From NCBI GenBank assembly GCA_028753945.1, contig JAPNXP010000002.1, forward strand, positions 14,701,624 through 14,765,623: a stretch of DNA of 64,000 nucleotides. The letters are read 5' to 3'. Source of the stretch: Hexactinellida sp. DTS-2022 (Eukaryota > Porifera > Hexactinellida). Positions 36,618 to 64,000 of the stretch are shown in pieces (position 1 is the stretch's first letter; every line of letters starts with the position of its first letter). Position numbers and translations under genes: made by a program. Below the pieces are notes generated by a model. The model worked only from the letters and a program-made list of their open reading frames with translations, had not been told where the DNA came from and did no database searches.

Positions 36618-39569
36618 ATGGCATTAATCAGGAGCAAATTAGAACCAAACTCAGAGCAAGATCGAGAAATATTGCAAGAGAATGAATCACAATCAAGCTC
36701 AAATATGCCATACTTGAATCTTCCCTCTACAATGCATGATGTTCAAAAGTTAGCTCTGAAAGGTATAGAACACCCTGGAATGAGAATGCTTAGTAACAGC
36801 CTTATGGCACACAGATCATCAAACAAGGCTATTATTTTCCTCTACGGAATGACTGGATCGGGGAAATCATCAACTCTAAATCACCTCTTCAATAACCTGG
36901 ATATGCTAAAAGTTTCTGACTATCGATCTTGCACCAAAGATGTTGTTGAGTATGTTGTAACAATGACAAGTGATGATTGTAGAGTTCACAACCTTGAAAT
37001 TGGTTTCATTGATACCCCGGGGTGGGGTGATACTGATGGCACAATCCAGGACGCTGTTAATCTGTCTTCAATTGCAACATTCCTACAAATGCATCCACTA
37101 TTGAGCTCAAAAAGTCATTCTCTATTTCCAAACATTGTGCTGATAGTAGTGTCAGCTGTTGACAAACGTCTAGGCGGGGAATTTTCAAATTGTGCCTACA
37201 TGTTGAGAGCTCTATCCAAGCTTCATGTTGTCGACAAATCACGCCCGAATGTTGTATTTGTATTGACTAATGCGAGTTCAGTTCCCAAAGGCAGATATAA
37301 ATGTGTGAAAAAGTATAAGACGGATCAAATTAAAGTTATGTGTCGTCAGTATCTGGGAATATCATCACCTGTGGTCTGGATTGAAAATGATTTTGTCGGC
37401 AATGAGCTGGAGAGGGATGGTGACTGGACTTTCCTTTTTGATAGAGAAAAGCAACCGCTAAATCTTTTTGAGGCAATGATCTCACTTTTCACAGAGAGCA
37501 GAGACGATATAGGCTTAGAGGCTGTCCGTATGTGTTTCAGCGGGAATTGTTCTAACCTTTTGAACCCCAAACCAGGCTTGAGCGTCCCAGGCAGAGCAGT
37601 ATCCCGTAAAGGTGCGAGTAAAGTGGTTGAATTGAATGATCAGGAAATGAACTGGCATTTAAGTATAATCAAAGAACTTAAATTATTGGTAAATACTGAA
37701 GTTACACAGGAACTTAGGGAATATACTAACTCGCATAAAGACATTGCTCGTTTTGAAGAAATGGTCCCAATGTTAACATATTTGCAAGAATCAGGAATCA
37801 CAAAGTTATCTGAACTCGAAAAAAGAACGCTATACGAAATTGAGAGCATGCTTAAACCATTTCTTATCAACAGAACAGATAAGTTTATACTTTTGGAAGT
37901 TTTCAAAGTACACTACAAGTCTTTCTTGGACATAGTGCAAGTTGTTGGCTGTGGCTATAACACTGAAAATAGAAGTATCTCGGACTTACGAATTTTCGAT
38001 ATAAAAACATTGGATTGTGAATTTGACTACAACGTTGGCATTTACATTCCAAAATGTATTGACACAACTCTTATACAGTACACAACAATAACTTGTGTAG
38101 AAAATGATCAGCCAGCTCATGATACAGATACGCATAATACTGAAGTTGTTCCGGCTAGAATATTTGGATTTGAGATCATTCATAATCTATACACTTTCGA
38201 AACAAACAAACACCTTGCAAAAATAAACCATAATCAAGGAATTGTAAAATCAATACAGGAGCTGCCAACTTCTGCAATCGATAACAGCAACACTGTTACT
38301 CGTGCCTATTCAGATTTTTTTAGAATTTATGGAAACTTGGAGATACACAGTGCGGTGGTAAGTGGGAGAATATCCGGTTGTGTGACGATGTATAATAGTT
38401 CCAATCAATATATCGTCGAGCGTCAAATATGTGCAGTTCTTGAGAATAAAATAACTGCAATCAAGGAGAATAATATCCAAAATGATGTTTTTTTAGAAGT
38501 TGACTTTGATGTTGACAATGTACCTTTGGAATTTGTTGGAGGTGATCAAAGCCACTATTGCCCTACTATAAACCAATTAACCCATGAAAAGTGGAATGCT
38601 TGGGTTGACTCAATTCTAAGCAATCCAATATTTCACCCTGATTATTATGGAATGTCGCCTATTTATAACCTGGTAAAAACGATCGATTCTAACAAAGGAA
38701 ATGAAATGCAAATAGCATACGATACGGTATACAAGAACATAACCCATAGACTATGTAACCCACTTTCGAATATAATCTCAGATAAAGAACCCGATAGATT
38801 GAGAGACGCAAAGTCAAGATTGCATGCTAGTAATATAGCAAAACACACTATAAATCATAGCAACACTAACAATGCATGTTTCCCAGGGAATGCAAGAGTG
38901 GAGTTGAGAGGAGGAGAGAGAGTTAGGATGGATGAATTGAAGATAGGAGACCACGTGTTATCCATCCACCCAACTACAGGCAAACCTGTCTACTCCAGAG
39001 TGTACCTCTGGGCACACCGAGACACACACATCACAGCCACATTCCTCCACATCACACATCCTCACGGACACCTGCACATCTCTGCTAGCCATCTGATCCT
39101 GAGTGGAGACCAGAGGAGACCAGTGCCAGCTGATCAGTTGCGAGTGGGAGACAGTATCCACTTTCTCTCTCCCTGTCTGTCCCAGCAGCAGCAGCAGCAG
39201 CAGCAGCTGGATGGGAAGGAGGAGGGGGAGAGAGGAGACTCCCACACACTCATCTCAGTGCCCGTGCTACACATACACACGTGTACACAGGTGGGGTACT
39301 ACGCTCCCTTCACTATGAACAGCTATATATTAGTGGATGGCATAGCAGCCAGTGTATTCAGTGTAACAGAACAATCAATGTCTCAGATTGCATATTTTCA
39401 AACCATTGGACAGTCTCTATTCTACCCGATGCGTTTACTCGACAGACTTGGATTTGGGACAATAGTTGGTACTTATTTGGATAAAGACACCAAAATTCAT
39501 AAGTACGCTCAGTTTCTAAAAGGCTCATATCAGGTACTTAAACCTTTAATGAATTGTTTAAAATATTAA
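36618..39569 (+). CDS. GTPase-MACPF-Hog protein, array member 1 (mosaic C-terminus)
   Basis: One exon, 983 residues. The P-loop GYG-type GTPase starts with GMTGSGKS at 77-84, with IDTPGWGDT as G3. G4 is atypical (VLTNASS). A helical linker follows, then a MACPF/perforin-like domain from about VVGCGYN to SPIYNLV, with its signature YSDFFRIYGNL at 564 and FVGG...WNAWVDSILSNP after it. Unlike its neighbours it has no degenerate Hint: the MACPF leads straight to a Hint whose Cys is residue 754 (ACFPGNARVELRGG), with the SASH motif and eight Gln. DNA from 38877 to about 39313 is nearly identical to the other members. After that the sequence departs: TMNSYILVDGIAASVFS, then a different tail with FYPMRLLDRLG and IHKYAQFL, a Hedgehog-like sterol-recognition region. 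There is no signal peptide. GTPase and pore-former roles are inferred. Confidence 0.8.
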   Translation: MALIRSKLEPNSEQDREILQENESQSSSNMPYLNLPSTMHDVQKLALKGIEHPGMRMLSNSLMAHRSSNKAIIFLYGMTGSGKSSTLNHLFNNLDMLKVSDYRSCTKDVVEYVVTMTSDDCRVHNLEIGFIDTPGWGDTDGTIQDAVNLSSIATFLQMHPLLSSKSHSLFPNIVLIVVSAVDKRLGGEFSNCAYMLRALSKLHVVDKSRPNVVFVLTNASSVPKGRYKCVKKYKTDQIKVMCRQYLGISSPVVWIENDFVGNELERDGDWTFLFDREKQPLNLFEAMISLFTESRDDIGLEAVRMCFSGNCSNLLNPKPGLSVPGRAVSRKGASKVVELNDQEMNWHLSIIKELKLLVNTEVTQELREYTNSHKDIARFEEMVPMLTYLQESGITKLSELEKRTLYEIESMLKPFLINRTDKFILLEVFKVHYKSFLDIVQVVGCGYNTENRSISDLRIFDIKTLDCEFDYNVGIYIPKCIDTTLIQYTTITCVENDQPAHDTDTHNTEVVPARIFGFEIIHNLYTFETNKHLAKINHNQGIVKSIQELPTSAIDNSNTVTRAYSDFFRIYGNLEIHSAVVSGRISGCVTMYNSSNQYIVERQICAVLENKITAIKENNIQNDVFLEVDFDVDNVPLEFVGGDQSHYCPTINQLTHEKWNAWVDSILSNPIFHPDYYGMSPIYNLVKTIDSNKGNEMQIAYDTVYKNITHRLCNPLSNIISDKEPDRLRDAKSRLHASNIAKHTINHSNTNNACFPGNARVELRGGERVRMDELKIGDHVLSIHPTTGKPVYSRVYLWAHRDTHITATFLHITHPHGHLHISASHLILSGDQRRPVPADQLRVGDSIHFLSPCLSQQQQQQQQLDGKEEGERGDSHTLISVPVLHIHTCTQVGYYAPFTMNSYILVDGIAASVFSVTEQSMSQIAYFQTIGQSLFYPMRLLDRLGFGTIVGTYLDKDTKIHKYAQFLKGSYQVLKPLMNCLKY

Positions 39570-39752
39570 ACTCAAATAATAAACTATTAGTCAAGTTTGA
39601 GTAATTGTAATTATTTCTTGAATATGTAGAGTGTAAGAGCTTCACTGTAAACTAATATTCAACGTTAAATTGCCGAAATAAACTGGTTATTAAATATTAA
39701 CATTTAAAGTCTAAATTGTTTACAGCAGCATTAGCAACATTATTACACTGCA

Positions 39753-42700
39753 ATGAATTATTTTCAGCTACCCTCATCTCCCATTGAAGTGAACTGTATG
39801 ATGAAAACGAATTATCACCATGGGATGAGAATGGTGCAGGCAAGTTTGAATGCACAACGAGCTTGCAATGAAGCAATAATATTTGTTTATGGCCAGACTG
39901 GAGCGGGTAAAACATCCTCCCTTAATCACTTATTTGATTCTGAAATTATTCCAAAGTCGAAAAGAGGAATATCTGATACACATTCTGTTTCAGAGTATAT
40001 GTCAGTGATGAGTAGTCCTAAATGGGAGGTGACAAACCTTGAAATTGGGTTTATTGATCTCCCAGGTTGGGGTGACACACATGGAGATGCACAAGACGCT
40101 AGGAATTTAGCCGCAATTGAACAGTTCACAATGGGTCATCGTCATTTGGGTTCTAGACTTTACAAGTGCTATCCCAACATAATCCTTATAGTATTCAATG
40201 TCATGGAAGAACGGTTGGAAGGCCCAGAATCGAACGCAGCGAGAATGCTACGGATGCTAAATGAACTTCGTGTGGTGGATATTAAACACCCTAACGTCGT
40301 GGTGGTGTTGACTCACGCAATGAGTCTCCCACCCCTTATATTCCAAGAATCTTTGAGGGACATAGAACGGATTATTAAAACTCTAACCAAGACATTTTTG
40401 AAAGTTGAAGCTAGGGTTGTATATGTTGAAAACAACACTTCAGGGTTTCCTCTGAAGAAAGAAGGGGAATGGACTGTTCTAGCGGATGGAACACTGCAAC
40501 CTATAAACCTCTTCGATGCAATGATTGATCTCATGACGGAGTCTGGTGACGAAGTGGGGGTGGAAGCAGTTAGATTGTACTTTCGGGATAGAGGATCGAA
40601 CAAACCGATCGAACTAAGGAAAGTAGAAACTAACTGTGTACCTAGGACAGCCGAAGAAAAGTGGAGAGCAATTATAATCCTAAATAATAAGAAGATGACT
40701 GATACCGAAGTTCTGCGTAGAATTAAGGTATACCGTCGAGAACATCCAGATATAGCTCAAGACAGATTACTTCCGTTATCTTTTGAATTGAATAAAGCGG
40801 GTTTCATGAAAATAGCAGATTTCGAGTCTCTTAATGTTGATGAGGTAGAGAGTTATCTTGAACCTTATTTGCTGGGTGAGCTGGAGAAAAAGATTCTAAT
40901 GGAAGTGTTCGGAGTGAAGTCAAGAACTTTGCCAGATTTAGTCAATTCAGTAGGACGAGGATTCGATATAGAGCATCACTGCTTTCTCCATCCAATCCTA
41001 AAACCAATGACAGATTATTATATTACTAATGGGGTGAATGTTCCAACATGTATGAGGGCAGTCCCATTGGAAGAGTTAATGATGGTTTGTAAAGTAGAAG
41101 AGCTCGATGATAAGGATACCTCATTTAAAGCAAGCAAACCGCCATCGCTGCATATGGAATCTAAGGATAACTGTCAGCAGAAATTAAAACCAGTTTCCCT
41201 TTGTCCTATAAGTCCTATTACATCAGAGGCTAAATACTTCCCTGAAGAACTAAGTATTTATAAATTTATATTCACAATAACTCGCAATGTAATGAACATA
41301 GAATTCGTGATTCACGAAGAACTTATTAAGCAAGTGAGTGAGGAGTTCATTCAAGATATCAACGAACTTCCGTTGAACTTTACCTTGCTTGAAGAGGACA
41401 CTATTGCAGTAGACGTTGCTTATGAGCAATTCTTTAAGAAATACGGACAATACTTTGTGCTAGGATGCAAGAGTGGGGGTCGCATTATCGGAGAATTAAA
41501 TCTAAAATGCAGAGATCAAGATGTGATTCAAACCAAAGCAATAGTCCAACAGTATGTGAGTGCGTACTTAGCTACACTACAGTCGACTACAGATAAAAAC
41601 GAATACAAATTTGATGATGAACTCTTCAACAAAATCCTACAGGCACCTCTAAGCTGGGAAGGAGGGATTAAACCAGAATTCTGTGAGAGCTTAAGAGACA
41701 TCAGTTCAGAACTTTGGCATGTCTGGATCAAATCGCTAAAACAAAAATCGAATATTTTAACCGATGTGGATAACAACTTAAGACTAATTCCAATCTACCA
41801 ATTCGCAAGTTGCATAAGCAAACCAATCAGTGAACGACTCAAAGAAGCAATCTCTGTCTTAAGCCCTGGACTCTATTTATTTGATACTGAATTTACCATC
41901 GAACAAACTCCGATACCAGAAGATAGCATCCATGATGAGGGATTTGGAGCTAATCGTAGGAGAACTCAGAGTAGATCTAAACAAACTAGATCGGTACCAA
42001 CTTTGACCAGAAATTTAGCATCCGATGAAGCTGACACTGGGACTAGTGATTGTTCGAAAGGCGGATTTCCAGGAAATGCAAAAGTAAGGAAAAGGGGGGT
42101 CAATGGAGGGCCAATTGAAGTAAATATGGATACAATCAAAGAAGGTGATTACTTATTGTGTGCTAATTCACAAGGTAAAGTAAATTATGAAATAATAAGT
42201 CACATGAAAAAGGAAGCAAAGAAAAAAGTAATATATCTTATAATTTCCGATAATGTTGATAAGGTTACAATTGGGTACAAACATCGGATAGTACACGGAG
42301 GCCTTAGTAGTGCAACAGTAGCAGAAGAACTTAAGTTGGGGCACAAAATTTACAGTGTTGCATTTAAAGCAAATGAAGTTAAACCAACTACATTACTAAA
42401 TATTGGTATTATCCCACAAGTTGGAAACTATATACCCATAATGGAGAAAGGAAATATAATTGTTAATGGGATTGTATGTGAAAATCCAGATAATTGTTTC
42501 CCAGGGAATGCAAGAGTGGAGTTGAGAGGAGGAGAGAGAGTTAGGATGGATGAATTGAAGATAGGAGACCACGTGTTATCCATCCATCCAACTACAGGCA
42601 AACCTGTCTACTCCAGAGTGTACCTCTGGGCACACCGAGACACACACATCACAGCCACATTCCTCCACATCACACATCCTCACGGACACCTGCACATCTC

Positions 42701-43238
42701 TGCTAGCCATCTGATCCTGAGTGGAGACCAGAGGAGACCAGTGCCAGCTGATCAGTTGCGAGTGGGAGACAGTATCCACTTTCTCTCTCCCTGTCTGTCC
42801 CAGCAGCAGCAGCAGCAGCAGCAGCAGCTGGATGGGAAGGAGGAGGGGGAGAGAGGAGACTCCCACACACTCATCTCAGTGCCCGTGCTACACATACACA
42901 CATGTACACAGGTGGGGTACTACGCTCCCTTCACCAACAACGGATTCATTGTGGTGGATGGCATAGCAGCCAGTGTGTACAGTCATCTCTCTACTCACTC
43001 TCAATCAGACAGCAGCAGCAGCAGCTGGCTGTGGAGTGGCGTGTGTCGCGGTGTGACTAGTGGACTGGTGCACCAGTTTGGTATGCATAGAGTGGGTCAG
43101 TGTGTGCTGACACCAGTACGAGTGGCATATAAGTTGGGTGCGGGGAGTGTGCTGAGTCGCCAGATGGACACAAACACACACATACACAAGTACTGTCAGT
43201 GGTTACTAGACACTTTTAATCCATCCAATATTACATAA
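39753..43238 (+). CDS. GTPase-MACPF-pseudoHint-Hog protein, array member 2
   Basis: One exon, 1161 residues; an in-frame TAG precedes the ATG. Domains in order: GTPase with G1 GQTGAGKT at 47-54 and G3 DLPG at 102-105, and LTHAMS at the G4 position without the usual Asp; a helical linker (about 300-395); and MACPF-like (about 397-705), with VGRGFDI at its start, signature YEQFFKKYGQYF at 557, then WEGG and LWHVWIKSLKQ. A first Hint-like module at 770 begins GGFPGNAKVRKRG with Gly instead of the catalytic Cys. A canonical Hint follows with Cys915 (NCFPGNARVELRGG), GDHVLSIHPTTGKPVYS, SASHLILS, nine Gln, YYAPFTNNGFIVVDGIAASVY, and a C-terminal region ending HIHKYCQWLL. The last corresponds to the Hog sterol-recognition tail. 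Predicted autoprocessing would cut before Cys915. No signal peptide or membrane span is seen. Confidence 0.82.
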   Translation: MNYFQLPSSPIEVNCMMKTNYHHGMRMVQASLNAQRACNEAIIFVYGQTGAGKTSSLNHLFDSEIIPKSKRGISDTHSVSEYMSVMSSPKWEVTNLEIGFIDLPGWGDTHGDAQDARNLAAIEQFTMGHRHLGSRLYKCYPNIILIVFNVMEERLEGPESNAARMLRMLNELRVVDIKHPNVVVVLTHAMSLPPLIFQESLRDIERIIKTLTKTFLKVEARVVYVENNTSGFPLKKEGEWTVLADGTLQPINLFDAMIDLMTESGDEVGVEAVRLYFRDRGSNKPIELRKVETNCVPRTAEEKWRAIIILNNKKMTDTEVLRRIKVYRREHPDIAQDRLLPLSFELNKAGFMKIADFESLNVDEVESYLEPYLLGELEKKILMEVFGVKSRTLPDLVNSVGRGFDIEHHCFLHPILKPMTDYYITNGVNVPTCMRAVPLEELMMVCKVEELDDKDTSFKASKPPSLHMESKDNCQQKLKPVSLCPISPITSEAKYFPEELSIYKFIFTITRNVMNIEFVIHEELIKQVSEEFIQDINELPLNFTLLEEDTIAVDVAYEQFFKKYGQYFVLGCKSGGRIIGELNLKCRDQDVIQTKAIVQQYVSAYLATLQSTTDKNEYKFDDELFNKILQAPLSWEGGIKPEFCESLRDISSELWHVWIKSLKQKSNILTDVDNNLRLIPIYQFASCISKPISERLKEAISVLSPGLYLFDTEFTIEQTPIPEDSIHDEGFGANRRRTQSRSKQTRSVPTLTRNLASDEADTGTSDCSKGGFPGNAKVRKRGVNGGPIEVNMDTIKEGDYLLCANSQGKVNYEIISHMKKEAKKKVIYLIISDNVDKVTIGYKHRIVHGGLSSATVAEELKLGHKIYSVAFKANEVKPTTLLNIGIIPQVGNYIPIMEKGNIIVNGIVCENPDNCFPGNARVELRGGERVRMDELKIGDHVLSIHPTTGKPVYSRVYLWAHRDTHITATFLHITHPHGHLHISASHLILSGDQRRPVPADQLRVGDSIHFLSPCLSQQQQQQQQQLDGKEEGERGDSHTLISVPVLHIHTCTQVGYYAPFTNNGFIVVDGIAASVYSHLSTHSQSDSSSSSWLWSGVCRGVTSGLVHQFGMHRVGQCVLTPVRVAYKLGAGSVLSRQMDTNTHIHKYCQWLLDTFNPSNIT
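42495..43207 (+). repeat. Homogenised Hog-coding tract, present eight times
   Basis: About 0.7 kb of nearly identical DNA, including silent sites, begins at the TGT codon of the catalytic Cys. Copies: 38877-39313 (truncated match), 42495-43207, 46587-47303, 50474-51192, 54127-54868, 58290-59037, 60331-59620 (minus) and 64000-63371 (minus, partial). Each has a CAG run giving 8, 9, 10, 11, 7, 9, 7 and 8 Gln respectively. The tract is visibly richer in G+C than the preceding 2-3 kb of each gene. Confidence 0.93.
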
Positions 43239-43736: not shown

Positions 43737-46700
43737 ATGGCAGAACGTCTCGCCAGGTCAGAGAACAATCAAGACAATTCGGATTATCTAAAACTACCGG
43801 ATTCGCTTATTGAAGCCTCAAAAATTAGAAAACAAAACTATGACCATAAAGCAATGTATATGATTGGAGCGAGCATTGAAGCCAAGCGTGCCTGCAATGA
43901 AGCTATAATATTTGCGTACGGGGCGACGGGAACAGGAGCTTCTGCAACTTTAAATCATCTCTTCAACCTCGACATTATTCCCACAAGCGATTCAAAGTCT
44001 CAAACTACAACAGTGACTGAGTATGTATCAACACTAGAGAGCGAAGATTGGAAAGCTAAGAATCTTCGGATTTGCTTCATAAACCCACCAGGATATGGCG
44101 ATACAAAAGGAGATATGCAGGATATCATGAATCTTGCTGCAATTGAAGAATTGATTTCCAAACAAAGGCATTTAGGAACGAAATTCTATAAGTGTTACCC
44201 AAACATTGTTCTGATTACTATAAATGCAAATGATTATCGTATTCGAGGAGAACGATCGCATTTCAATAATATGCTGAATGCTCTCAAACATTTTGGATTA
44301 GTAGATACTCACAAGCCTAATTTAGTAATTGTACTGACACATGTCATGAGCATACCAAAGGGTAACTTTACCAATAAGATTCAGGAACAATCAGAATGTA
44401 TCCAAGAAATAATAAGAACAACTTTTGGCATAGAAGGAAGCATAGTTTATATTGAGAATTGCGCACAATCTTATATTCTTGAGAAAGATGGAGATTGGAC
44501 TGTTTTAGCAGATGGCACAAGACAACCGCTCAACTTATTCGAAGCCATGATTAAATTAATGAAAAATAATTGCGACGAAGTTGGAGTGGAAGCGATTAGA
44601 CTCTTCTTCCCAGATAAAAGAGTGAGAGATCCCATCGTAGGAATGGTTGTGGAGATTGGAACCGATAACGAAGAGAAAATACAGCGCTGGAGCAGAGTTA
44701 TTAACCACAAAAAACTTAGAATTCTAGACAATGATTGTACGATTGAAATTAGGGACCATCAGAGGAAAAACCCGACAATTCCTAAAGATGATCTCCTCCC
44801 CCTCATGTCAGAGCTAAATAGAGCTAAAATACTGCATCCAAATGATATCAGAGGAAAGAACATCTCTGAAATACAAAAACTGGTATGGCCGTACCAACTC
44901 ACAGTGTTAGATAAGGAAACCCTCATTTACTTGTTTGATATACAACCAGCCCAATACACACAGTTTCTAGTAGAGATTGGCCATGGGTGTTATACTAACG
45001 AAATAATGCCAACTGCAACAGAGTCAATGTTCAATTTTACAAATCGAGAAAAACCTTTGAAAATTCGTAATGGGGGAGTATACCTGCCGCATTGTATGGA
45101 AATTGAATTTTCAGAAGACACAACTGTATACTGTTACTGCCCAACATTAACTAAAGAAGAAAATCTAATCGAGGACATTGTTAAAAGTATTATTACTTTT
45201 TCAGGAATTCAATCAGAGAGTTTCACAAAGAAACAATACACATTTGTATTCATGGTAACACACACTGTATTCAATCTTCAAATACAGTTCCCAAAAGAAC
45301 TACCAGAATATCTAAACCCTGAATTGAGAAAATCATTTGAGAATCTACCATATGATTGCATTGTAGAAGTAACAGAAGAAGGAACGAACTGTCACCCACT
45401 CTACCTGGAATTCTTGCAGAAATATGGTCACTGTCTTCTAACACATTGGAATGGAGGAGGGATTGTTAGTGGCCAGATAACGGTAGAAATATTCCATTCA
45501 GATATTCCGAAAACGGAAGGGATAATTAATAATTATCTCAGAATGTATTTTACCTCATCACATCTGACCAAAGAATCATATCAAGAAGAATTAGTCAACT
45601 CTGTGGTAGAAGCATTGCATTCTGCAAAATTGACATATAAAGGAGGCATAGCCCCGCTCGTAAAAGACAACCTTCTAGGCAGGCTTAATTCAAATAAAAT
45701 AGAGGAGTGGAAACGCTCTCTTTTGGATTATCCAATCCCTTTGGAGAATATTCAACTTAGCAAACTTAACATCGCTATCTATGAAGTTCTTAAGAATTTT
45801 AGTGACGACAAGTGTGCTAAGTTAAAGCAAGTGTTGGATATAATAGCTCCGGAATACGACATCGATGATAGATTATCAGAAATGGAGGCAGATTATTTTG
45901 TAAATGATAGTGCATTTTTTGCAGTGAAACAACGGGATCCCAAACATACTATTGAACAGCCAGCTACCCCTGAGCACATGGCTACCCCTGAGCCTAGATC
46001 GCGAAGATGTAGTTTCCTCCTACAAGAAGATGAAATTCTCAGAGACTACTGCAATATAACGATGGGTGACATACTGGGAAACTCTACGAGAGAGATTGCA
46101 GCTATGAGGGCTAAGAGTAACGCAATTAACACAATACAGTATGGATTTCCAGCAAATGCTAGGGTTTGGAGGAAAAAGCATGAGGACTTTGATCCAGAGG
46201 AAATTGAGATAATAAACTTGGAAGTAGGTGATCTAGTAGAATGCGTTAGTCGGAATCAACTTCGTTTGTACGTACCTGTGCTCAATATAGCCAAAATAAT
46301 GGGGGATTTCCAATTTATTCAGGCTGATCATGATCACGGAAAAATAGTGATAGGTGAATTTAATTATATCGTAAAAGGAAACCGATTGAAGAAAGTAACT
46401 GCAAAAAAGTTAAAAATAGGAGACAAGTTGGTCTGGGCTCAACCAAGTGCAACAAAGCTTAAAATAACACACATTAAACGGTTGAGTCTGGTGAAAGAGA
46501 CAGGAAACATCCAGCCAAGTTTTAACGATAATGATTTTGTATATATTGTTGTAAATGGAATAATTTGTGGTAAACAAGGCAACGGGTGTTTCCCAGGGAA
46601 TGCAAGAGTGGTGTTGAGAGGAGGAGAGAGAGTTAGGATGGATGAATTGAAGATAGGAGACCACGTGTTATCCATCCATCCAACTACAGGCAAACCTGTC

Positions 46701-46891
46701 TACTCCAGAGTGTACCTCTGGGCACACCGAGACACACACATCACAGCCACATTCCTCCACATCACACATCCTCACGGACACCTGCACATCTCTGCTAGCC
46801 ATCTGATCCTGAGTGGAGACCAGAGGAGACCAGTGCCAGCTGATCAGTTGCGAGTGGGAGACAGTATCCACTTTCTCTCTCCCTGTCTGTC

Positions 46892-46923
<32 letters not shown>

Positions 46924-50600: not shown

Positions 50601-50778
50601 ACCTCTGGGCACACCGAGACACACACATCACAGCCACATTCCTCCACATCACACATCCTCACGGACACCTGCACATCTCTGCTAGCCATCTGATCCTGAG
50701 TGGAGACCAGAGGAGACCAGTGCCAGCTGATCAGTTGCGAGTGGGAGACAGTATCCACTTTCTCTCTCCCTGTCTGTC

Positions 50779-50813
<35 letters not shown>

Positions 50814-54400: not shown

Positions 54401-54855
54401 ACAGTATCCACTTTCTCTCTCCCTGTCTGTCCCAGCAGCAGCAGCAGCAGCAGCTGGATGGGAAGGAGGAGGGGGGGAGAGGAGACTCCCACACACTCAT
54501 CTCAGTGCCCGTGCTACACATACACACGTGTACACAGGTGGGGTACTACGCTCCCTTCACCAACAACGGATTCATTGTGGTGGATGGCATAGCAGCCAGT
54601 GTGTACAGTCATCTCTCTACTCACTCTCAATCAGACAGCAGCAGCAGCAGCAGGCTGTGGAGTGGCGTGTGTCGCAGTGTGACTAGTGGACTGGTGCACC
54701 AGTTTGGTATGCATAGAGTGGGTCAGTGTGTGCTGACACCAGTACGAGTGGCATGTAAGTTGGGTGCGGGGAGTGTGCTGAGTCGACAGATGGACACAAA
54801 CACACACATACACAAGTACTGTCAGTGGTTACTCAACGTATACAGGAATATATGA
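51412..54855 (+). CDS. GTPase-MACPF-pseudoHint-Hog protein, array member 5
   Basis: One exon, 1147 residues, starting 200 bp after member 4. G1 is GLSGAGKS at 61-68, G3 is FIDVPGWKDTNG, and LTNVMS is at the G4 position. The MACPF-like domain carries signature YVDFLNTYGHWVVVGCECGG from 544. DNA from 52856 to about 53137 is nearly identical to members 6 and 7, although the flanks are very different, marking a conversion patch. The degenerate Hint begins about 756 (GFPNTAKLIKVEN) without Cys. The canonical Hint has Cys906 and seven Gln, with small differences (MNELKIG, RRQVPAD, EEGGRGD). The tail ends LNVYRNI, shared with member 6 together with the first bases after the stop. Intact frame throughout. 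Confidence 0.81.
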   Translation: MATNSNDYTEFLSLPSNVYEAKDMNVAFLNGSITHESGFRMVKNSLRAQRACNEAIIFAYGLSGAGKSSTLNHLFGFEKEKIFIENYNETDTKFVSEYTATMTSVEWGVSNLEIGFIDVPGWKDTNGEYYDARNLANIEHFMINHPYLGCKAYRCYPSILLIAIDATQKRMIGEKADLNIMMRALSKLNVVDKTRPNVLFVLTNVMSIPAGEYKEALETIESILKKLSKQLLGVEVKITHIENHWKAHNLPKSGHSTILRDGSHQPDNVFEEMMALTRKCNDSVGQEAIKLYFNSRSKNRNLICKRKSRPEDLSEFQIRKWENFLADEFKYIPDNEVNEALRIYAKQNLKKLFGNQFVLNKLMNELHKKELTNLNTLANLTLNRIKEKMLPFILNDIECEALINVCGVKPFDLSHIIDTIGYGLNGDLMEQTNSSLVKLNKEFHVMAHLRLPKCMEAGASIEKIRIRCKRLAYPTPEGSGQITSPSTETPVKYQFQIIYSIYTVKLILSDHQLLASQLSPGFKEAVAALPESGIAEGNLVRREYVDFLNTYGHWVVVGCECGGCVEGELEMEEREGLHLQEYIRTYIRSLVDRLESEEVAEEDADANNNAVGIIPYDCINVFHLIDNCKLSWTGGKTMEGHWTLKSLRKVDWISWVNSLSDKAKLVSSHHMRNEIVVPVSEIVILFDNEKSKEIRLAHENLDKSFGQIFDNDVLESLQEEIPFSADILDSYDHISMFEYDPTNTDRTRRCKQAISGFPNTAKLIKVENPKNQPSFTSVLIGTIKRGDLILSLRGIRTRYHKVKRVVSNTGHSNYIFLNIKHEQGEIIIASKQPILIIKGTLCSYNFAKNLRVGNTIAFYNLDQRKFKRVRVNKMSKVTCRVNYSIEIEDNSNFILDQIVVGDDNGCFPGNARVVLRGGERVRMNELKIGDHVLSIHPTTGKPVYSRVYLWAHRDTHITATFLHITHPHGHLHISASHLILSGDQRRQVPADQLRVGDSIHFLSPCLSQQQQQQQLDGKEEGGRGDSHTLISVPVLHIHTCTQVGYYAPFTNNGFIVVDGIAASVYSHLSTHSQSDSSSSSRLWSGVCRSVTSGLVHQFGMHRVGQCVLTPVRVACKLGAGSVLSRQMDTNTHIHKYCQWLLNVYRNI
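52856..53137 (+). repeat. Homogenised MACPF-core tract shared by members 5, 6 and 7
   Basis: About 282 bp that differs at only a handful of sites from 57056-57337 (member 6), and matches member 7 at about 61570-61300. On both sides members 5 and 6 fall to a distant relationship. The tract encodes the MACPF signature region. Confidence 0.85.
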
Positions 54856-55566: not shown

Positions 55567-58500
55567 ATGGCAGAGAACTTGTGTTATCAAGAATCAACTG
55601 ATGACGAAATTGAGAGATCGAAATTAACAACTGTTGACAATAAACACAGCTATGAAGAGTACTGGCAGTTACCAGATAGCGTGTTAAAAGTAAGCATGTT
55701 CTCAAAAAACGGTATCTTAAATAAAGGAATGGAAATGGTAGGAAAAAGTCTGAAAGCGCATAGATCTTGTAATGAGGCTATAATATTTGTGTACGGATTA
55801 ACGGGAGCTGGAAAAACATCATCTTTAAATCACCTATTCGGGTTTGATGTTATCAGTATATCAGATGAAAAGGCATCTGACACTAAACTTGTCACAGAGT
55901 ATGTAGCGACAATGGAGAGTGACGATTGGGGAGTTTCTAATCTACAAATTGGGTTCATAGATATGCCAGGTTGGAATGACGCAAGAGGAGAGGAGCAAGA
56001 CATTCTGAATATGGCCACGATCGATCAATTTATCTCAAATCACCCATACTTAGGCTCAATCGCATACAAACGTTACCCCAGTATTGTAATGGTTGCTATT
56101 AATGCTTTTGATAGGAGAATAAAAGGAGAAAACTCACATGTCGTACAAATGTTCCGAGCTCTGAATAAATTGAAAATTATAGATAAAGAAAGGCCCAATC
56201 TCCTAATCGTACTAACACATATAATGAACATTCGAAAGAAAAATTACAAGGAAAACGTGAACAATATAATCGCTTTAGTGAAAGAACAAGCTTTTAGATA
56301 TCTTAACATTGACCCTGCGATTGTGTACATGGATAACGATATTGAAGATCATGAACTAGAAGTAAAGGGAGATTGGACAATTCTCAGAGACGGAACCCTA
56401 CAACCAAAGAATGTGTTCGAGGCAATGATGCAACTGACAGATAAGCACAAAGATGAAGTGGGACACGAGGCCATCAGACTCTACTTTGCATCCAGAGGTG
56501 CCAACAAGCCAGTCAACAAAAGACAGTCATTACCAGATACACTTATGAAATATCAAATTAAGAAATGGAGATCTATTATAGCTCAAGAATTTGCTAACGC
56601 TCCCAGGAATGAAGTCACTGAAGCACTACAGACCTATGCACACAGTCACCCTGACATATGTACTGAGAGAAGTCTGGTTACTCTTATGATTGAGTTAAAT
56701 GCTCGGTTACTCACTCAGTTAGACTCTCTCCAGTCCATGACATTGAACCAGGTGCAAGAGAGACTAGCTCCGTACCAACTCTCACTGATCGAGAATCAGT
56801 CGTTAGTAGAAGGCTGTGGAGTGAAGCCCTACGAGTTCCCAAACATTCTCCACAACATTGGCTATGGCCTGAATGCAGAGACAGGCGAACTGACTCGCAC
56901 TCCTACACTGGAGCTGTCCAGTGAGTGGTATGTTCAGAGAGGAGTGAAGTTACCAAAGTCCATGCATGTAGTTAAGCCCATGGAAAAACGACGAGTGCAA
57001 TGGAAGCGATTGAGTGAATCTGATTTTGCTTACGATAAGCTGACAGGCCAAATGCTAACATCACCATCAACAGAAACACCCGTTAAGTACCAATTCCAGA
57101 TAATCTATAGTCTCTACACAGTCAAGTTGATTCTATCTGACCATCAGCTGTTAGCGTCTCAACTCAGTCCTGGCTTCAAGGAAGCAGTGACAGCTCTTCC
57201 CGAGAGTGGCATTGCAGAGGGGAATCTAGCGAGGAGAGAGTATGTTGACTTCCTCAACACGTATGGACACTGGGTGGTTGTTGGTTGTGAGTGTGGAGGG
57301 TGTGTAGAGGGAGAGTTGGAGATGGAAGAGAGGGAGGCCATGTATGTGCAGGAACACATCTCCTTGTACATCAACAGCTTGCTTGACAGGTTAGAGTCTG
57401 GAGATGATCCAGCATCTTATCTTTAGCCAGTGAGGACATTCATGAGGCAGAACAGATGTTTGAATCAATCGGGAGACAGGTCCTGAACTGGAGGGGCGGT
57501 GACTATCCTGGTCAATTTTCTCTAGCCACAATCACTCCACAGATATGGCAACAATGGACTATCTCTCTCTTTGAGAAACCTATAACTCTGGATGTTGTTG
57601 GCCCAAGCAATTCCAAGCAATTACAGATCTATCAGCTTGTATCAATCTTGGATAAATTTAAATGTTATGAACTACAAAAAGTTATTAATAAACTTAATGT
57701 AGAGTTCGATACAGAAGCTTTGAATATGAAGAGTGTTGAATCTTCATCTTCTGGATCTAAAGAATACGCTATAAATCAGACTGTAGATAACACCAGAGAG
57801 GGAACAAGCAAGCAACACGCGTCAAATACACTTAAACAAGTTTCAGGAGGTTTTCCTGGTGACTCGATTTGTATCCGTGGGAATTTCGAAGATTTTTCCA
57901 AAGTTGAAATTAAAGATATTGTAGAAAATGATGAAATATTAGTTTGCAAAGATCTATGGTGGATACATTTCGAAAATCGGACAGCAATTAAATTGGAAGG
58001 TAAAAAATTTGAATACATCAATATTACGCATGAACTTGGGGAAATTAAAATAGGCAAACGTGCAACTCTCTTAGTGAAGGTACAAAATGGATATCCCAAA
58101 CTAGTTCCTGCAGAAAATGTACGTTTGGGGGATATCATACATTACGTCGATATTGGTAATAGAAATACCCGAAGATCAAAAGTTAATGGAATCAAGACTC
58201 TTGAAGGAAAAGGAAATTACTCCTTTCAAAGAGGCAAGTTCAGTATGATAACAGTGAACCAAGTTGTAACTGGAGACGAAGAACCTGCTTGTTTCCCAGG
58301 GAATGCAAGAGTGGAGTTGAGAGGAGGAGAGAGAGTTAGGATGGATGAATTGAAGATAGGAGACCACGTGTTATCCATCCATCCAACTACAGGCAAACCT
58401 GTCTACTCCAGAGTGTACCTCTGGGCACACCGAGACACACACATCACAGCCACATTCCTCCACATCACACATCCTCACGGACACCTGCACATCTCTGCTA

Positions 58501-59024
58501 GCCATCTGATCCTGAGTGGAGACCAGAGGAGACCAGTGCCAGCTGATCAGTTGCGAGTGGGAGACAGTATCCACTTTCTCTCTCCCTGTCTGTCCCAGCA
58601 GCAGCAGCAGCAGCAGCAGCAGCTGGATGGGAAGGAGGAGGGGGAGAGAGGAGACTCCCACACACTCATCTCAGTGCCCGTGCTACGCATACACACGTGT
58701 ACACAGGTGGGGTACTACGCTCCCTTCACCAACAACGGATTCATTGTGGTGGATGGCATAGCAGCCAGTGTGTACAGTCATCTCTCTACTCACTCTCAAT
58801 CAGACAGCAGCAGCAGCAGCAGGCTGTGGAGTGGCGTGTGTCGCAGTGTGACTAGTGGACTGGTGCACCAGTTTGGTATGCATAGAGTGGGTCAGTGTGT
58901 GCTGACACCAGTACGAGTGGCATGTAAGTTGGGTGCGGGGAGTGTGCTGAGTCGCCAGATGGACACAAACACACACATACACAAGTACTGTCTGTGGTTG
59001 CTCAACGTATACAGGAATATATGA
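55567..59024 (+). pseudogene. GTPase-MACPF-pseudoHint-Hog, array member 6, one frameshift
   Basis: A first frame of 619 codons (55567-57426) encodes an intact GTPase (G1 GLTGAGKT at 77-84, G3 FIDMPGWNDARG), linker and most of the MACPF-like domain with its signature at 559. Compared with member 7, one base is missing at about 57411-57417, producing a TAG at 57424-57426. The following frame is then open without a break to 59024. It carries the rest of the MACPF, the degenerate Hint (GGFPGDSICIRG), the canonical Hint with its Cys codon at 58290-58292, nine Gln and the tail LNVYRNI. As it stands the gene would give a truncated GTPase-MACPF protein lacking any Hint. With only one lesion it is a very young pseudogene, a segregating allele or an assembly error. 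It is the closest relative of member 7 over its whole length. Confidence 0.8.
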
Positions 59025-59608: not shown

Positions 59609-62600
59609 TTAATAAAATAATTTGAGTAACCACTGACAGTACTTGTGTATGTGTGTGTTTGTGTCCATCTGGCGACTCAGCACACTCCCCGCACCCAACT
59701 TACATGCCACTCGTACTGGTGTCAGCACACACTGACCCACTCTATGCATACCAAACTGGTGCACCAGTCCACTAGTCACACTGCGACACACGCCACTCCA
59801 CAGCCAGCTGCTGCTGCTGCTGTCTGATTGAGAGTGAGTAGAGAGATGACTGTACACACTGGCTGCTATGCCATCCACCACAATGAATCCGTTGTTGGTG
59901 AAGGGAGCGTAGTACCCCACCTGTGTACATGTGTGTATGTGTAGCACGGGCACTGAGATGAGTGTGTGGGAGTCTCCTCTCTCCCCCTCCTCCTTCCCAT
60001 CCAGCTGCTGCTGCTGCTGCTGCTGGGACAGACAGGGAGAGAGAAAGTGGATACTGTCTCCCACTCGCAACTGATCAGCTGGCACTGGTCTCCTCTGGTC
60101 TCCACTCAGGATCAGATGGCTAGCAGAGATGTGCAGGTGTCCGTGAGGATGTGTGATGTGGAGGAATGTGGCTGTGATGTGTGTGTCTCGGTGTGCCCAG
60201 AGGTACACTCTGGAGTAGACAGGTTTGCCTGTAGTTGGATGGATGGATAACACGTGGTCTCCTATCTTCAATTCATCCATCCTAACTCTCTCTCCTCCTC
60301 TCAACACCACTCTTGCATTCCCTGGGAAACAAGAAGGTTCTCCGCCTCCAGTTATAACTTGATTCACAGCTACCATGGTCATCCTTCCCGTTTGGAACGA
60401 GTAATTTCCCTTTCGTTCAACAAGGCTGATTTCATTAATCAATGATTTAATAGTACTTCTCTTATCGACATCAATATAATAGATCACATCACCTGGTCTG
60501 ATATTCTTAACGAGTTTTAGTTCGGGTGGCTTAAATGGATACTTAACCAAAACTGTATGTAGGTGTCCTAATGCAATATCCCCATACTCATGTGTAATCT
60601 TGATAAACTCATACATGCTACAATTTTCTCCCACATTTCGAAATCCAAATTTCTTCGCTTTCTCAAATTTTATCCAATATGGGTCTCTGCATAATATGTT
60701 ATCATTTTCCGAAATATCGCTTATTTGAACTTTGGAATAATCTTCAAAATTCCCACAGATACAAATCGAGTCACCAGGAAAACCTCCTGAACCTTGTTTA
60801 AGTGTATTTGACGCGTGTTGCTTACTTGTTCCCTCTCTGGTGTAATCTACAGTCTGATTTATAGCGTATTCTTTAGATCCAGAAGATAAAGATTCAACAC
60901 TCTTCATATTCAAAGGTTCTGTATCGAACTCTCCATTAAGTGTATTAAGAACTTTTTGTAGCTCATTAGATTTGAAATTATCCATAATTGATACAAGCTG
61001 ATAGATCTGTAATTGCTTGGAATTGCTTGGGCCAAAATCATCCAGAGTTATAGGTTTCTCATAGAGAGAGGTAGTCCATTGTTGCCATATCTGTGGAGTG
61101 ATTGTGGTTAGAGTAAATTGACCAGGATAGTCACCACCCCTCCAATTCAGGACCTGTCTCCCGATTGATTCAAACATCTGTTCTGCCTCATGAATGTCCT
61201 CACTGGCTAAAGATAAGGAAGCTGGATCATCTCCAGACTCTAACCTGTCAAGCAAGCTGTTGATGTACAAGGAGATGTGTTCCTGCACATACATGGCCTC
61301 CCTCTCTTCCATCTCCAACTCTCCCTCTACACACCCTCCACACTCACAACCAACAACCACCCAGTGTCCATACGTGTTGAGGAAGTCAACATACTCTCTC
61401 CTCACTAGATTCCCCTCTGCAATGCCACTCTCGGGAAGAGCTGCCACTGCCTCCTTGAAGCCAGGACTGAGTTGAGACGCTAACAGCTGATGGTCAGATA
61501 GAATCAACTTGACTGTGTAGAGACTATAGATTATCTGGAATTGGTACTTAACGGGTGTTTCTGTTGATGGTGATGTTAGCATTTGGCCTGTCAGCTTATC
61601 GTAAGCAAAATCAGATTCACTCAATCGCTTCCATTGCACTCGTCGTTTTTCCATGGGCTTAACTACATGCATGGACTTTGGTAACTTCACTCCTCTCTGA
61701 ACATACCACTCACTGGACAGCTCCAGTGTAGGAGTGCGAGTCAGTTCGCCTGTCTCTGCATTCAGGCCATAGCCAATGTTGTGGAGAATGTTTGGGAACT
61801 CGTAGGGCTTCACTCCACAGCCTTCTACTAACGACTGATTCTCGATCAGTGAGAGTTGGTACGGAGCTAGTCTCTCTTGCACCTGGTTCAATGTCATGGA
61901 CTGGAGAGAGGCTAACTGAGTGAGTAACCGAGCATTTAACTCAATCATAAGAGTAACCAGACTTCTCTCAGTAGATATGTCAGGGTGACTGTGTGCATAG
62001 GTCTGTAGTGCTTCAGTGACTTCATTCCTGGGAGCGTTAGCAAATTCTTGAGCTATAATAGATCTCCATTTCTTAATTTGATATTTCATAAGTGTATCTG
62101 GTATTGACTGTCTTTTGATGACTGGCTTGTTGGCACCTCTGGATGCAAAGTAGAGTCTGATGGCCTCGTGTCCCACTTCATCTTTGTGTTTATCTGTCAG
62201 TTGCATCATTGCCTCGAACACATTCTTTGGTTGTAGGGTTCCGTCTCTGAGCATTGTCCAATCTCCTTTTACTTCTAGTTCGTTGTCTTCATATTTGTTC
62301 TCTACATAAGTTATGACAGGCTCAATGTCAAGATAACATTTTGCTAACTCTTTTACAATAATTATCAGGCTATTTAATTTATCTTTGAAACTCCTTTTTC
62401 CAACATCCACAACATGTGTCAGTATAATGAGGAGATTGGGTCTGACTTTGTCTATAATTTTCAGCTTGCTAAGAGCACGGAACATACGTACAACTTGTGA
62501 GTTGTCCCCTACTATCCTGTTATCACTCGCCTTGATAGCAACCATTACAATACTGGGGTAACATTTGTATGCGATTGAGCCTAAGTATGGGTGATTTGAG

Positions 62601-63055
62601 ATAAATTGATCGATCGTGGCCATATTCAGAATGTCTTGCTCCTCTCCTCTTGCGTCATTCCAACCTGGCATATCTATGAACCCAATTTGTAGATTAGAAA
62701 CTCCCCAATCGTCACTCTCCATTGTCGCTACATACTCTGTGACAAGTTTTGTGTCAGATGCCTTTTCATCTGATATACTGATAACATCAAACCCGAACAT
62801 ATGATTCAAAGATTGCGATTTCCCAGCACCAGTCACCCCGTACACAAATATAATAGCCTCATTACAAGATCTATGTGCTTTCAGACTGTTTCCTACCATT
62901 TCCATTCCTCGATTTAATATCCCTTTTTTTGATAGCAAATATGCCTTAAATATGTTGTCTGGTAGCTCAAAATATTTTTCAATACTTTCACTGGTTATTA
63001 TAGAAGTCTCAACTTCCTCATCTGTTATTTCTAGAAAACCCAACTTTTCTGCCAT
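59609..63055 (-). CDS. GTPase-MACPF-pseudoHint-Hog protein, array member 7
   Basis: One exon on the minus strand, 1148 residues, uninterrupted. Start MAEKLGFLEITDEE. G1 is GVTGAGKS at 73-80, G3 is FIDMPGWNDARG, and LTHVVDVG stands at the G4 position, here with an Asp. The linker and MACPF-like domain have IGYGLNAETGE at the start, signature YVDFLNTYGHW at 555, then WRGGDYPG and WTTSLYEKP. The degenerate Hint starts at about 757 (GGFPGDSICICGN). The canonical Hint has Cys909 and seven Gln. The Hog tail ends HKYCQWLLKLFY. It is very similar to member 6 in the first 720 residues, so an inverted duplication is recent. It is the best intact reference for the family's architecture. Confidence 0.83.
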   Translation of the reverse strand: MAEKLGFLEITDEEVETSIITSESIEKYFELPDNIFKAYLLSKKGILNRGMEMVGNSLKAHRSCNEAIIFVYGVTGAGKSQSLNHMFGFDVISISDEKASDTKLVTEYVATMESDDWGVSNLQIGFIDMPGWNDARGEEQDILNMATIDQFISNHPYLGSIAYKCYPSIVMVAIKASDNRIVGDNSQVVRMFRALSKLKIIDKVRPNLLIILTHVVDVGKRSFKDKLNSLIIIVKELAKCYLDIEPVITYVENKYEDNELEVKGDWTMLRDGTLQPKNVFEAMMQLTDKHKDEVGHEAIRLYFASRGANKPVIKRQSIPDTLMKYQIKKWRSIIAQEFANAPRNEVTEALQTYAHSHPDISTERSLVTLMIELNARLLTQLASLQSMTLNQVQERLAPYQLSLIENQSLVEGCGVKPYEFPNILHNIGYGLNAETGELTRTPTLELSSEWYVQRGVKLPKSMHVVKPMEKRRVQWKRLSESDFAYDKLTGQMLTSPSTETPVKYQFQIIYSLYTVKLILSDHQLLASQLSPGFKEAVAALPESGIAEGNLVRREYVDFLNTYGHWVVVGCECGGCVEGELEMEEREAMYVQEHISLYINSLLDRLESGDDPASLSLASEDIHEAEQMFESIGRQVLNWRGGDYPGQFTLTTITPQIWQQWTTSLYEKPITLDDFGPSNSKQLQIYQLVSIMDNFKSNELQKVLNTLNGEFDTEPLNMKSVESLSSGSKEYAINQTVDYTREGTSKQHASNTLKQGSGGFPGDSICICGNFEDYSKVQISDISENDNILCRDPYWIKFEKAKKFGFRNVGENCSMYEFIKITHEYGDIALGHLHTVLVKYPFKPPELKLVKNIRPGDVIYYIDVDKRSTIKSLINEISLVERKGNYSFQTGRMTMVAVNQVITGGGEPSCFPGNARVVLRGGERVRMDELKIGDHVLSIHPTTGKPVYSRVYLWAHRDTHITATFLHITHPHGHLHISASHLILSGDQRRPVPADQLRVGDSIHFLSPCLSQQQQQQQLDGKEEGERGDSHTLISVPVLHIHTCTQVGYYAPFTNNGFIVVDGIAASVYSHLSTHSQSDSSSSSWLWSGVCRSVTSGLVHQFGMHRVGQCVLTPVRVACKLGAGSVLSRQMDTNTHIHKYCQWLLKLFY

Positions 63056-63370
63056 GTTTGTTTGTTATTTTACTAGGAATAGCTTTTGTTGTATTTATTG
63101 GCAAATTGCCTCCTATAAATACATTATATGCAACATTTGATATGCTTTCAAGCAAAGGCCTACTCAATTACAATCTTCCTACATTGCTTAATTAATGTTT
63201 ACCAATGGTAACATTGAGTTCCTTGTGAAAGTACTCAACTTCCAAATCCATTTAAATATATGCTTAGAGACATTATTTAATCAGGACTCTGCTTAGTTCC
63301 TTAATTAATTACAAACACTCATTCAAAAAATATAGCACAAAAAACTATTGTCGTTATAAAGTTATTCCAA
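63056..63370. other. Spacer between members 7 and 8
   Basis: 315 bp AT-rich spacer holding the promoter of member 7 and the 3' end of member 8. No feature beyond that is seen. Confidence 0.4.
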
Positions 63371-64000
63371 TTATACAGAATTGAGCAACCACAGACAGCA
63401 CTTGTGTATGTGTGTGTTTGTGTCCATCTGGCGACTCAGCACACTCCCCGCACCCAACTTACATGCCACACGTACTGGTGTCAGCACACAGTGACCCACT
63501 CTATGCATACCAAACTGGTGCACCAGTCCACTAGTCACACTGCGACACACGCCACTCCACAGCCAGCTGCTGCTGCTGCTGTCTGATTGAGAGTGAGTAG
63601 AGAGATGACTGTACACACTGGCTGCTATGCCATCCACCACAATGAATCCGTTGTTGGTGAAGGGAGCGTAGTACCCCACCTGTGTACATGTGTGTATGTG
63701 TAGCACGGGCACTGAGATGAGTGTGTGGGAGTCTCCTCTCTCCCCCTCCTCCTTCCCATCCAGCTGCTGCTGCTGCTGCTGCTGCTGGGACAGACAGGGA
63801 GAGAGAAAGTGGATACTGTGTCCCACTCGCAACTGATCAGCTGGCACTGGTCTCCTCTGGTCTCCACTCAGGATCAGATGGCTAGCAGAGATGTGCAGGT
63901 GTCCGTGAGGATGTGTGATGTGGATGAATGTGGCTGTGATGTGTGTGTCTCGGTGTGCCCAGAGGTACACTCTGGAGTAGACAGGTTTGCCTGTAGTTGG
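63371..64000 (-). CDS. Hog-domain C-terminus of array member 8 (cut by window edge)
   Basis: 210 codons open from the window edge to a stop at 63371. The visible part begins inside the canonical Hint (PTTGKPVYSRVYLWAHRDTH) and includes SASHLILS, eight Gln, YYAPFTNNGFIVVDG and the tail ending HIHKCCLWLLNSV. It is nearly identical in DNA to the other members, with a few differences (FIHI for FLHI, VGHSIHF, HKCC for HKYC). The GTPase and MACPF parts, if present, lie beyond 64000. It has the same orientation as member 7, so the array continues outside the window. Confidence 0.85.
   Translation of the reverse strand, partial: PTTGKPVYSRVYLWAHRDTHITATFIHITHPHGHLHISASHLILSGDQRRPVPADQLRVGHSIHFLSPCLSQQQQQQQQLDGKEEGERGDSHTLISVPVLHIHTCTQVGYYAPFTNNGFIVVDGIAASVYSHLSTHSQSDSSSSSWLWSGVCRSVTSGLVHQFGMHRVGHCVLTPVRVACKLGAGSVLSRQMDTNTHIHKCCLWLLNSV

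Follow-up and report, generated by a model that had tools for sequence, protein, structure and literature searches.

Fusions of a GTPase to a Hog domain, the Hedgehog-type unit that combines a Hint domain with a sterol-recognition region (SRR), are already in print. GmGIN1 of the fungus Glomus mosseae combines an AIG1-like GTPase with a bona fide Hog domain behind it and has no signal peptide (PMC2362128); in the animal Biomphalaria glabrata, an AIG gene that is an unusual member of a GIMAP-type family encodes an AIG1 GTPase with a C-terminal Hint/hedgehog domain (PMC7053062). The words MACPF, perforin, prenyl and CaaX do not occur in the main texts of these two papers. Tandem, largely single-exon AIG1-type genes have expanded in the glass sponge Aphrocallistes vastus, and may or may not belong to the family treated here, AIG1 domains being the only ones named in that paper (PMC10282587). 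The present analysis concerns an array of genes of the glass sponge Hexactinellida sp. DTS-2022 in which a GTPase, a MACPF domain and a Hog domain are joined in one protein. The array lies in a stretch of 64,000 nucleotides (the window; C11:14701624-14765623, in a genome of 112 Mb and 18 contigs), which from position 36618 on holds seven complete genes, m1 to m7, of which m6 is split in two, together with the 3' part of m8, the eighth.

Each domain of the array proteins has well-known counterparts from which the family can be told apart. Perforin, MPEG1 and C6-C9 are secreted or lumenal and have other partner domains; the array family shares their MACPF fold, as judged by sequence profile and predicted structure, but its members start without a signal-like sequence, carry a GTPase in the same chain and end in a Hog or a CaaX box. 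Guanylate-binding proteins (GBPs) and GIMAPs are immune GTPases, some of which are anchored to membranes at the C-terminus, by CaaX or otherwise. GBPs are not known to have a MACPF domain, and the similarity of GIMAPs to the array family is confined to a distant one in the G domain. Hedgehog and Hedgehog-related Hog proteins share with the array family the Hint fold, the first cysteine (Cys1), a catalytic-site His and an SRR-like part; the array proteins differ from Hedgehog in having no Hedge domain (Pfam), no signal-like N-terminus, and His, mostly Ser, and Val in place of Asp303, Thr326 and Cys400, respectively. Unlike inteins, the array Hog extends to the stop codon and has no downstream extein.

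The family is therefore seen as a variant of the known GTPase-Hog fusions, with a MACPF domain placed between the two parts and with a sister clade ending in CaaX. A preliminary description of this DNA knew of no named family with this domain order, and none was found here: no paper with the GTPase-MACPF-Hint order was recognised among the papers listed by the literature searches, and the words MACPF, perforin, hedgehog and GTPase are missing from the main texts of two glass-sponge genome papers (PMC10280926, PMC10282587). The published GTPase-Hog fusions cited above restrict that novelty. We propose, giving the whole model an even chance, that the genes encode a glass-sponge cytosolic, GTP-controlled pore former which would gain a C-terminal lipid either by its Hog domain or by prenylation.

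The Hog domain and the homogenisation edge at Cys1

Pfam was run on the eight window pieces, with cut-offs of 29.7 bits for Hint (PF01079), 21.5 bits for MACPF (PF01823) and 21.9 bits for MMR_HSR1. PF01079 scores far above its cut-off in all seven pieces expected to carry it (107.8-144.7 bits), and the best stretch ends at profile positions 172-207 of 213. In five of the seven window Hogs the match passes position 200 and thus reaches the SRR, which bears out the Hedgehog-type Hint and sterol region of the preliminary description. The family profile matches Hedgehog with an E value of 7.6e-20. In m4 (47696..51211, + strand), the complete reference member of 1171 residues, the Hog occupies 50474..51208, with Cys1 at residue 927, and is part of a tract homogenised among paralogs; its Hint has the predicted fold of Hedgehog Hint domains with Cys1 and the TxxH residues in place, and helices are predicted in the SRR that follows.

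Because motif patterns missed 9 of 41 Hogs for WxH and 2 of 41 for TxxH, the catalytic residues were taken from an alignment of 24 rows, seven of them from the window. Cys1 and the His of TxxH are invariant in the downstream Hint (24/24 rows), and residue 909 of m7 had been named correctly as Cys1. The residue preceding Cys1 in 41 Hogs is mostly small or polar (S 11, A 9, N 6, G 5, T 5; P, D, Q, V and I once each). A second, upstream Hint, which the earlier account of the domain order had missed while placing GTPase, MACPF and Hog correctly, is present in m2-m7 and has Gly at the position of Cys1 in all 15 rows that possess it; it is missing in the other nine rows, m1 included. In m4 this dead Hint spans residues 780-922 (50033..50461, + strand), with Gly780 at the Cys1 position. 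A targeting domain often follows the MACPF domain in other MACPF proteins, and since the dead Hint sits at that place it may, by analogy and as a speculation, choose the target.

Three further positions depart from Hedgehog. Asp303 (Asp46 of the Hint), the general base for cholesterol, is His in 24/24 rows. Substitution of this residue in Drosophila Hedgehog has been studied: according to a review, D303H leaves structure and activity intact and lets the domain accept more kinds of substrate (PMC9163320; also PMC8529194), whereas D303A cleaves with dithiothreitol but does not attach cholesterol fully (PMC9163320). Thr326 is Ser in 20 rows and unchanged in the other 4, and all 24 have Val at the position of Cys400; these two replacements count against an active, sterol-transferring Hog.

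The Hogs of the array have been homogenised, and the upstream edge of the homogenised tract coincides with Cys1. Between array paralogs most of the head sequence has diverged to saturation. At four-fold degenerate sites, the GTPase parts agree at 21-47% in 27 of 28 array paralog pairs (m7-m8, 76%), whereas the Hogs agree at 94-100% in all 28. When the seven window genes are compared at base resolution, with m8 and m9 excluded, near-identity starts at the TGT codon of Cys1 and is lost again only in the final codons before the stop, m1 excepted. At the protein level, the 28 window pairs agree at 0-7 of the 15 positions that precede Cys1 and at 14-15 of the 15 that follow. The same holds for six other sets (five contigs and Oopsacas minuta), where 0-1 of 15 residues are common before Cys1 and 12-15 of 15 after it in 10/10 pairs. 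Heads are 30-36% identical and Hogs 90-98% in nine outside paralog pairs; in orthologs across genomes, restricted to pairs with head identity above 55%, the values are 55-88% for heads and 70-92% for Hogs. Thus Hogs are closer to same-genome paralogs than to orthologs, and several head groups have Hog-bearing orthologs at the same place. In these comparisons contigs stand in for genomes, some may belong to the same species, and the two members of the O. minuta pair are on different contigs; P0020, P0046, P0047, P0049 and the first piece of m6, which have no CFPGN motif, are excluded from the paralog and ortholog comparison. Gene m1 adds a case of its own: its Hint part is homogenised with its neighbours and its SRR is private, and the same private SRR occurs in its ortholog P0067 on another contig (Hint 88% and tail 81% identical; m1 tail versus other paralogs, 29-38%).

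The simplest reading of these sequence patterns would be that the Hog has repeatedly undergone gene conversion, with selection setting the limit at the start of the part that is shed, so that the edge at Cys1 would be an indirect footprint of self-cleavage before this residue. That the upstream drop in homology lies at Cys1 by chance is the weaker alternative. Two observations count against the proposed model: the Hog of the C18 copy is not homogenised (68-74% at four-fold sites), and the Hogs of P0020, P0046, P0047 and P0049 form another, plainly different set.

CaaX and Hog tails among relatives

Among named proteins, those of the glass sponge O. minuta are closest, and single gene models of this species (LOD99_14046 and LOD99_16130, for example) match the multi-domain frames; together with the single open frames in the window, this agrees with the earlier view that the parts belong to one gene. 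Matches in the protein searches were limited to O. minuta, to ENA proteins, not all of them necessarily hexactinellid, and to two GIMAP8-like proteins of Salvelinus (E 2.3e-5). Apart from the Salvelinus pair no named relative outside sponges was found in searches by 5-residue words, one of them on the best 8000 candidates, which leaves absence elsewhere unproven. A prokaryotic origin was considered and rejected: the GTPase-MACPF profile matched 98 stretches in genome contigs, none of which encodes a relative by tblastn.

From the protein searches 79 sponge-like database proteins were pooled, 41 with a precomputed Hint and 38 without. With a CaaX end defined as C-x-[VILMF]-x, that is, Cys at -4 and an aliphatic residue or Phe at a2, such ends occur in 22 of the 38 Hint-less proteins and in none of the 41 Hint proteins, three of which do have Cys at -4 (CKRT, CIEK, CITK). 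The array itself holds two Hint-less genes, one with the C-terminal sequence CRIF (C11:14772964-14775285) and one with CVIL (14775549-14777798). Twelve Hint-less proteins (P0036, P0037, P0048, P0069, P0071-P0073 and P0075-P0079) presumably come from one contig and represent a CaaX-type expansion. In a GTPase-MACPF tree of 87 rows, one branch with SH-aLRT support of 100 separates 24 CaaX and 2 tail-less proteins from 53 Hint and 8 tail-less ones. The trees were quick ones with long-branch warnings; short proteins were excluded, the 87-row tree was also run without P0051, and the first piece of m6 was counted as Hint, following its gene. Fisher's test of CaaX versus Hint gives p = 1.1e-9, with the two fish proteins excluded, but since there is essentially one split in the tree the count corresponds to about one event and this p is not a probability.

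We infer from the sequences that CaaX and Hog tails serve one purpose, to attach the C-terminus to a membrane, and the CaaX tails of the Hint-less sister clade give indirect support to the lipid tail proposed in the preliminary description. Several proteins fit this poorly. A looser rule with Thr at a2 would accept the Hint protein P0060 (CITK), and 16 of the 38 Hint-less proteins are without CaaX, eleven of which are short or cut models. The other five of these 16 (P0024, P0025, P0062, P0068 and, probably, P0056) are full-length proteins with neither tail, and they fall inside the Hint side of the tree.

GTPase, MACPF domain and proposed mechanism

The G1 and G3 motifs are typical in six of the seven window genes, and G4 reads LTHxx or LTNxx. 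In m4 the GTPase covers about residues 60-310 (47873..48625, + strand), with YGLSGHGKS, DPPGWGD and LTHAM as G1, G3 and G4. MMR_HSR1 exceeds its cut-off in m1 and m6, stays below in m2, m4, m5 and m7 (16.0-20.5 versus 21.9 bits) and is not reported for m3, which AIG1 and septin match weakly. The GTPase family profile finds septins (E 1.8e-5), Toc34 (8.9e-5) and GIMAP4 (0.0056). The AIG1 profile is below cut-off or absent in window members and above it in the CaaX relatives P0070, P0073, P0078 and P0079; the septin profile exceeds its cut-off in some CaaX relatives, over 67-161 residues only, and septin and MMR_HSR1 profiles compete with AIG1 for the G domain. The GBP family is absent from the Pfam output for window members and relatives at the thresholds used, and NCBIfam gives no match for m4. 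The P-loop GTPase earlier assigned to every member does not hold for m3, which reads GATGTGAS and not GxxGxGKS/T. The P-loop Lys is Ala in all five proteins of its group (m3, P0008, P0009, P0015, P0051), a point against a GTP switch throughout the family, which is otherwise plausible. Since the change is common to the whole group, the m3 lineage is, to judge from its motifs, probably a non-hydrolysing partner, that is, a pseudo-GTPase.

The MACPF domain of m4 lies at about residues 420-737 (48953..49906, + strand) and is identified by Pfam (29.1 bits), an AlphaFold2 model and a fold search. PF01823 is also above cut-off in m2 (27.2 bits) and in several database relatives; m5, m6 and m7 remain below (17.5-19.4 bits), and Pfam does not report it for m1 or m3 singly. 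The family profile finds perforin-1 (E 2.3e-11), C6 (1.7e-7) and C9 (4e-6) among known families. Residues 300-770 of m4, the only member folded over that region, are predicted to adopt the MACPF fold, the presence of which in the middle region had been set as a test of the preliminary description; MPEG1, C6, perforin and Mpf2Ba1 are the best structural matches, C9 and pleurotolysin B are lower, and astrotactin-2 is among them. The MACPF signature once ascribed to each gene is backed by these profiles and the m4 fold, but m1 lacks the double G in the alignment; its ortholog P0067 has a precomputed MACPF match. Two properties of the model speak against a pore former: the Foldseek TM-score to perforin is 0.39 for the 471-residue m4 model, and the presumed first membrane hairpin (model residues 186-220) has low confidence.

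The heads are mosaics. Over a region that starts near residue 281 and takes in the MACPF core, m6, m7 and m8 are near-identical, with a synonymous divergence (dS) of 0.01-0.06; dS is 0.05-0.10 in the short second piece of m6. They differ at the N-terminus, in part of the GTPase and above all in the dead Hint, where amino acid identity is 24-51% (m4 residues 801-920). Positive selection on the heads was not found: non-synonymous differences (pN) are below synonymous ones (pS) in nearly all blocks, many of which are saturated, and the exceptions are small (linker of the second m6 piece and m7, 0.07 versus 0.06; N-terminus of m4 and m9, 0.59 versus 0.53). With pN below pS nearly throughout, the genes are under constraint.

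Together these features suggest a mechanism in which the septin/AIG1-like GTPase would control the MACPF pore-forming domain. Because no N-terminal signal is seen in the window members, the protein is placed in the cytosol; in line with the earlier statement on signal peptides, their N-termini show no hydrophobic stretch (over 12 residues the Kyte-Doolittle maximum stays under 0.6), while a few database relatives have more hydrophobic ones (P0040, 2.13; P0079, 1.88). CaaX members would have a prenylated C-terminus. Hog members would cleave their own chain ahead of Cys1 in the last Hint and lose some 240 residues, and the new C-terminus would be passed to a sterol or similar alcohol. The C-terminal lipid would hold the head on a membrane, GTP binding would drive the proteins to assemble on their target membrane, and insertion of the MACPF domains would follow. 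Self-cleavage is probable, and this part of the preliminary description has gained support from the invariant Cys1 and His, the Hedgehog-type Hint fold and the edge at Cys1. Lipid attachment is somewhat more probable than improbable; pore formation stands in the balance, as does a role in defence. The most likely task would be cell-autonomous defence against microbes or their vacuoles inside the sponge syncytium. Glass sponges are syncytial (PMC10280926), and a syncytial body would favour local attack over cell suicide. An executioner in innate immunity or allorecognition, as put forward in the preliminary description, is a candidate role only, and no result obtained here points to allorecognition in particular. 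Tentatively, and with less confidence than in its parts, the family may be seen as a GTP-gated cytosolic perforin with an anchor written in two codes, CaaX prenylation or self-catalysed sterol attachment by a His-based Hog resembling the Drosophila D46H mutant, in which the Hog is a shared, homogenised cassette ending at the cleavage point while the heads diversify.

The Hog allows other explanations. It is possible, if unlikely, that it only cuts, the Cys1 thioester being hydrolysed or attacked by a thiol so that the head is freed without lipid as an autoproteolytic activation. The Asp that serves Drosophila Hedgehog as general base is replaced, the D303A mutant separates cleavage from full cholesterol attachment, and the edge at Cys1 argues for cleavage and not for a lipid; yet the replacement is His in every row, a swap reported to keep autoprocessing (PMC9163320), the SRR-like part is conserved between orthologs even where it is private (m1 and P0067), and the sister clade carries CaaX lipid signals. 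A catalytically dead Hog retained for protein binding would account for the changes at Asp303, Thr326 and Cys400 and has a precedent in the dead copy already upstream in 15 of 24 rows. That copy serves equally as an internal control, with Gly where the downstream Hint always keeps Cys1, and homogenisation stops at Cys1 in seven gene sets, the window's included, so that this reading is improbable. Least credible of all is a mobile, intein-like element copied into the array, its exact ends being insertion ends. Sharp limits at Cys1 and just before the stop, and near-identical copies, would suit it, but orthologs elsewhere bear the Hog at the same place and their Hogs resemble own-genome paralogs, as in concerted evolution, m1 and P0067 have a common private SRR behind a converted Hint, and Pfam finds no homing endonuclease in the window pieces. 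The mobile-element reading was rejected on this orthology.

The MACPF domain is likewise open to another interpretation. Some MACPF proteins do not form pores, and the array proteins could be non-lytic membrane scaffolds or trafficking GTPases of an astrotactin-like kind, perhaps for syncytium or spicule formation, which we regard as a minority possibility, slightly ahead of a Hog that only cuts. The astrotactin-2 match, the incomplete signature of m1 and the poorly predicted hairpin region all favour such a role. Against it, most of the closest structural matches form pores, and tandem expansion with exchange between copies is more usual in defence genes than in housekeeping scaffolds. If the GTP-controlled, lipid-anchored pore former is the correct view, Hedgehog-type protein lipidation would occur inside cells and outside signalling, and a pore former would be under direct GTP control. 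The family also raises the question of what other roles Hog domains have outside Hedgehog, as here they seem to take the place of a prenylation site. A gene-conversion edge on the presumed scissile residue in several gene sets suggests a way to see self-cleavage sites without experiment, and the family would make cell-autonomous defence in syncytial sponges approachable with single purified proteins.

Members of the array and neighbouring genes

The eight clustered genes of the preliminary description, seven in full, one of these broken, are confirmed by the open reading frames, m8 starting outside the window. Uninterrupted frames encode 983 (m1), 1161 (m2), 1203 (m3), 1171 (m4), 1147 (m5) and 1148 (m7) amino acids, m3 being counted from the ATG at 43737 (1237 in the frame list, from an upstream TTG); of m1-m7 only m6, with pieces of 619 and 522 amino acids, is not one long open frame. 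On the + strand, m1 (36618..39569) encodes a GTPase, a MACPF-like region and a Hog without a dead Hint (Cys1 codon at 38877). It is followed by m2 (39753..43238; GTPase, MACPF, dead Hint at about 42042-42476, Hog with Cys1 at 42495), m3 (43737..47348; GTPase-like domain with GTGAS and Ala for the P-loop Lys, MACPF region, dead Hint, Hog with Cys1 at 46587) and, beyond m4, m5 (51412..54855; GTPase, MACPF, dead Hint, Hog with Cys1 at 54127). The first piece of m6 (55567..57426, + strand) holds the GTPase and the start of the MACPF domain and ends at an early stop, and the second (57456..59024, + strand), analysed apart from the first, holds the end of the MACPF domain, the dead Hint and the Hog (Cys1 at 58290). 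On the - strand lie m7 (59609..63055; GTPase, MACPF, dead Hint, Hog with its Cys1 codon from 60331 downwards) and the 3' part of m8 with its Hog (about 63371..64000); the remainder of m8 reaches C11:14768449.

The array extends 12 kb past the window, to about C11:14777798, with m8, m9 and the two Hint-less genes. A genome search with m4 as query found further-off copies on C1, C5, C11 and C18, those on C5 being broken across several frames. A remnant copy at C11:14294750-14297666, about 440 kb upstream, has breaks inside the GTPase and where the Hog begins, and a separate MACPF gene at C8:2132647-2133171, in a 446-residue frame, is absent from the matches of the m4 query.

Two adjacent glypican-like genes lie upstream of the array on the - strand (30827-32317 and 32796-34439; PF01153 at 18.5 and 23.1 bits, cut-off 26.4). 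Glypicans are Hedgehog co-factors in other settings, and their position beside a Hog array is probably a coincidence. Two TRAF/MATH-type genes on the + strand, at 26070-27329 (MATH_2 24.5 bits, below cut-off) and 28670-30454 (TRAF-mep_MATH 36.4 bits, above cut-off), look like innate-signalling neighbours. A 318-residue P-loop NTPase at 3331-4287 (- strand), which we take to be reminiscent of IFI44-type GTPases, also has a CaaX end (CTIL); its Pfam matches are sub-threshold only (GTP_EFTU 16.9 bits), and PDB gives nothing clear. A receptor-like gene at 11294-14140 (+ strand) encodes two tyrosine-phosphatase stretches (PF00102, 349 bits) after a Thr/Ser-rich part, and part of an AP-3 delta subunit (PF06375, 33.1 bits) is encoded at 15012-16592 (- strand).

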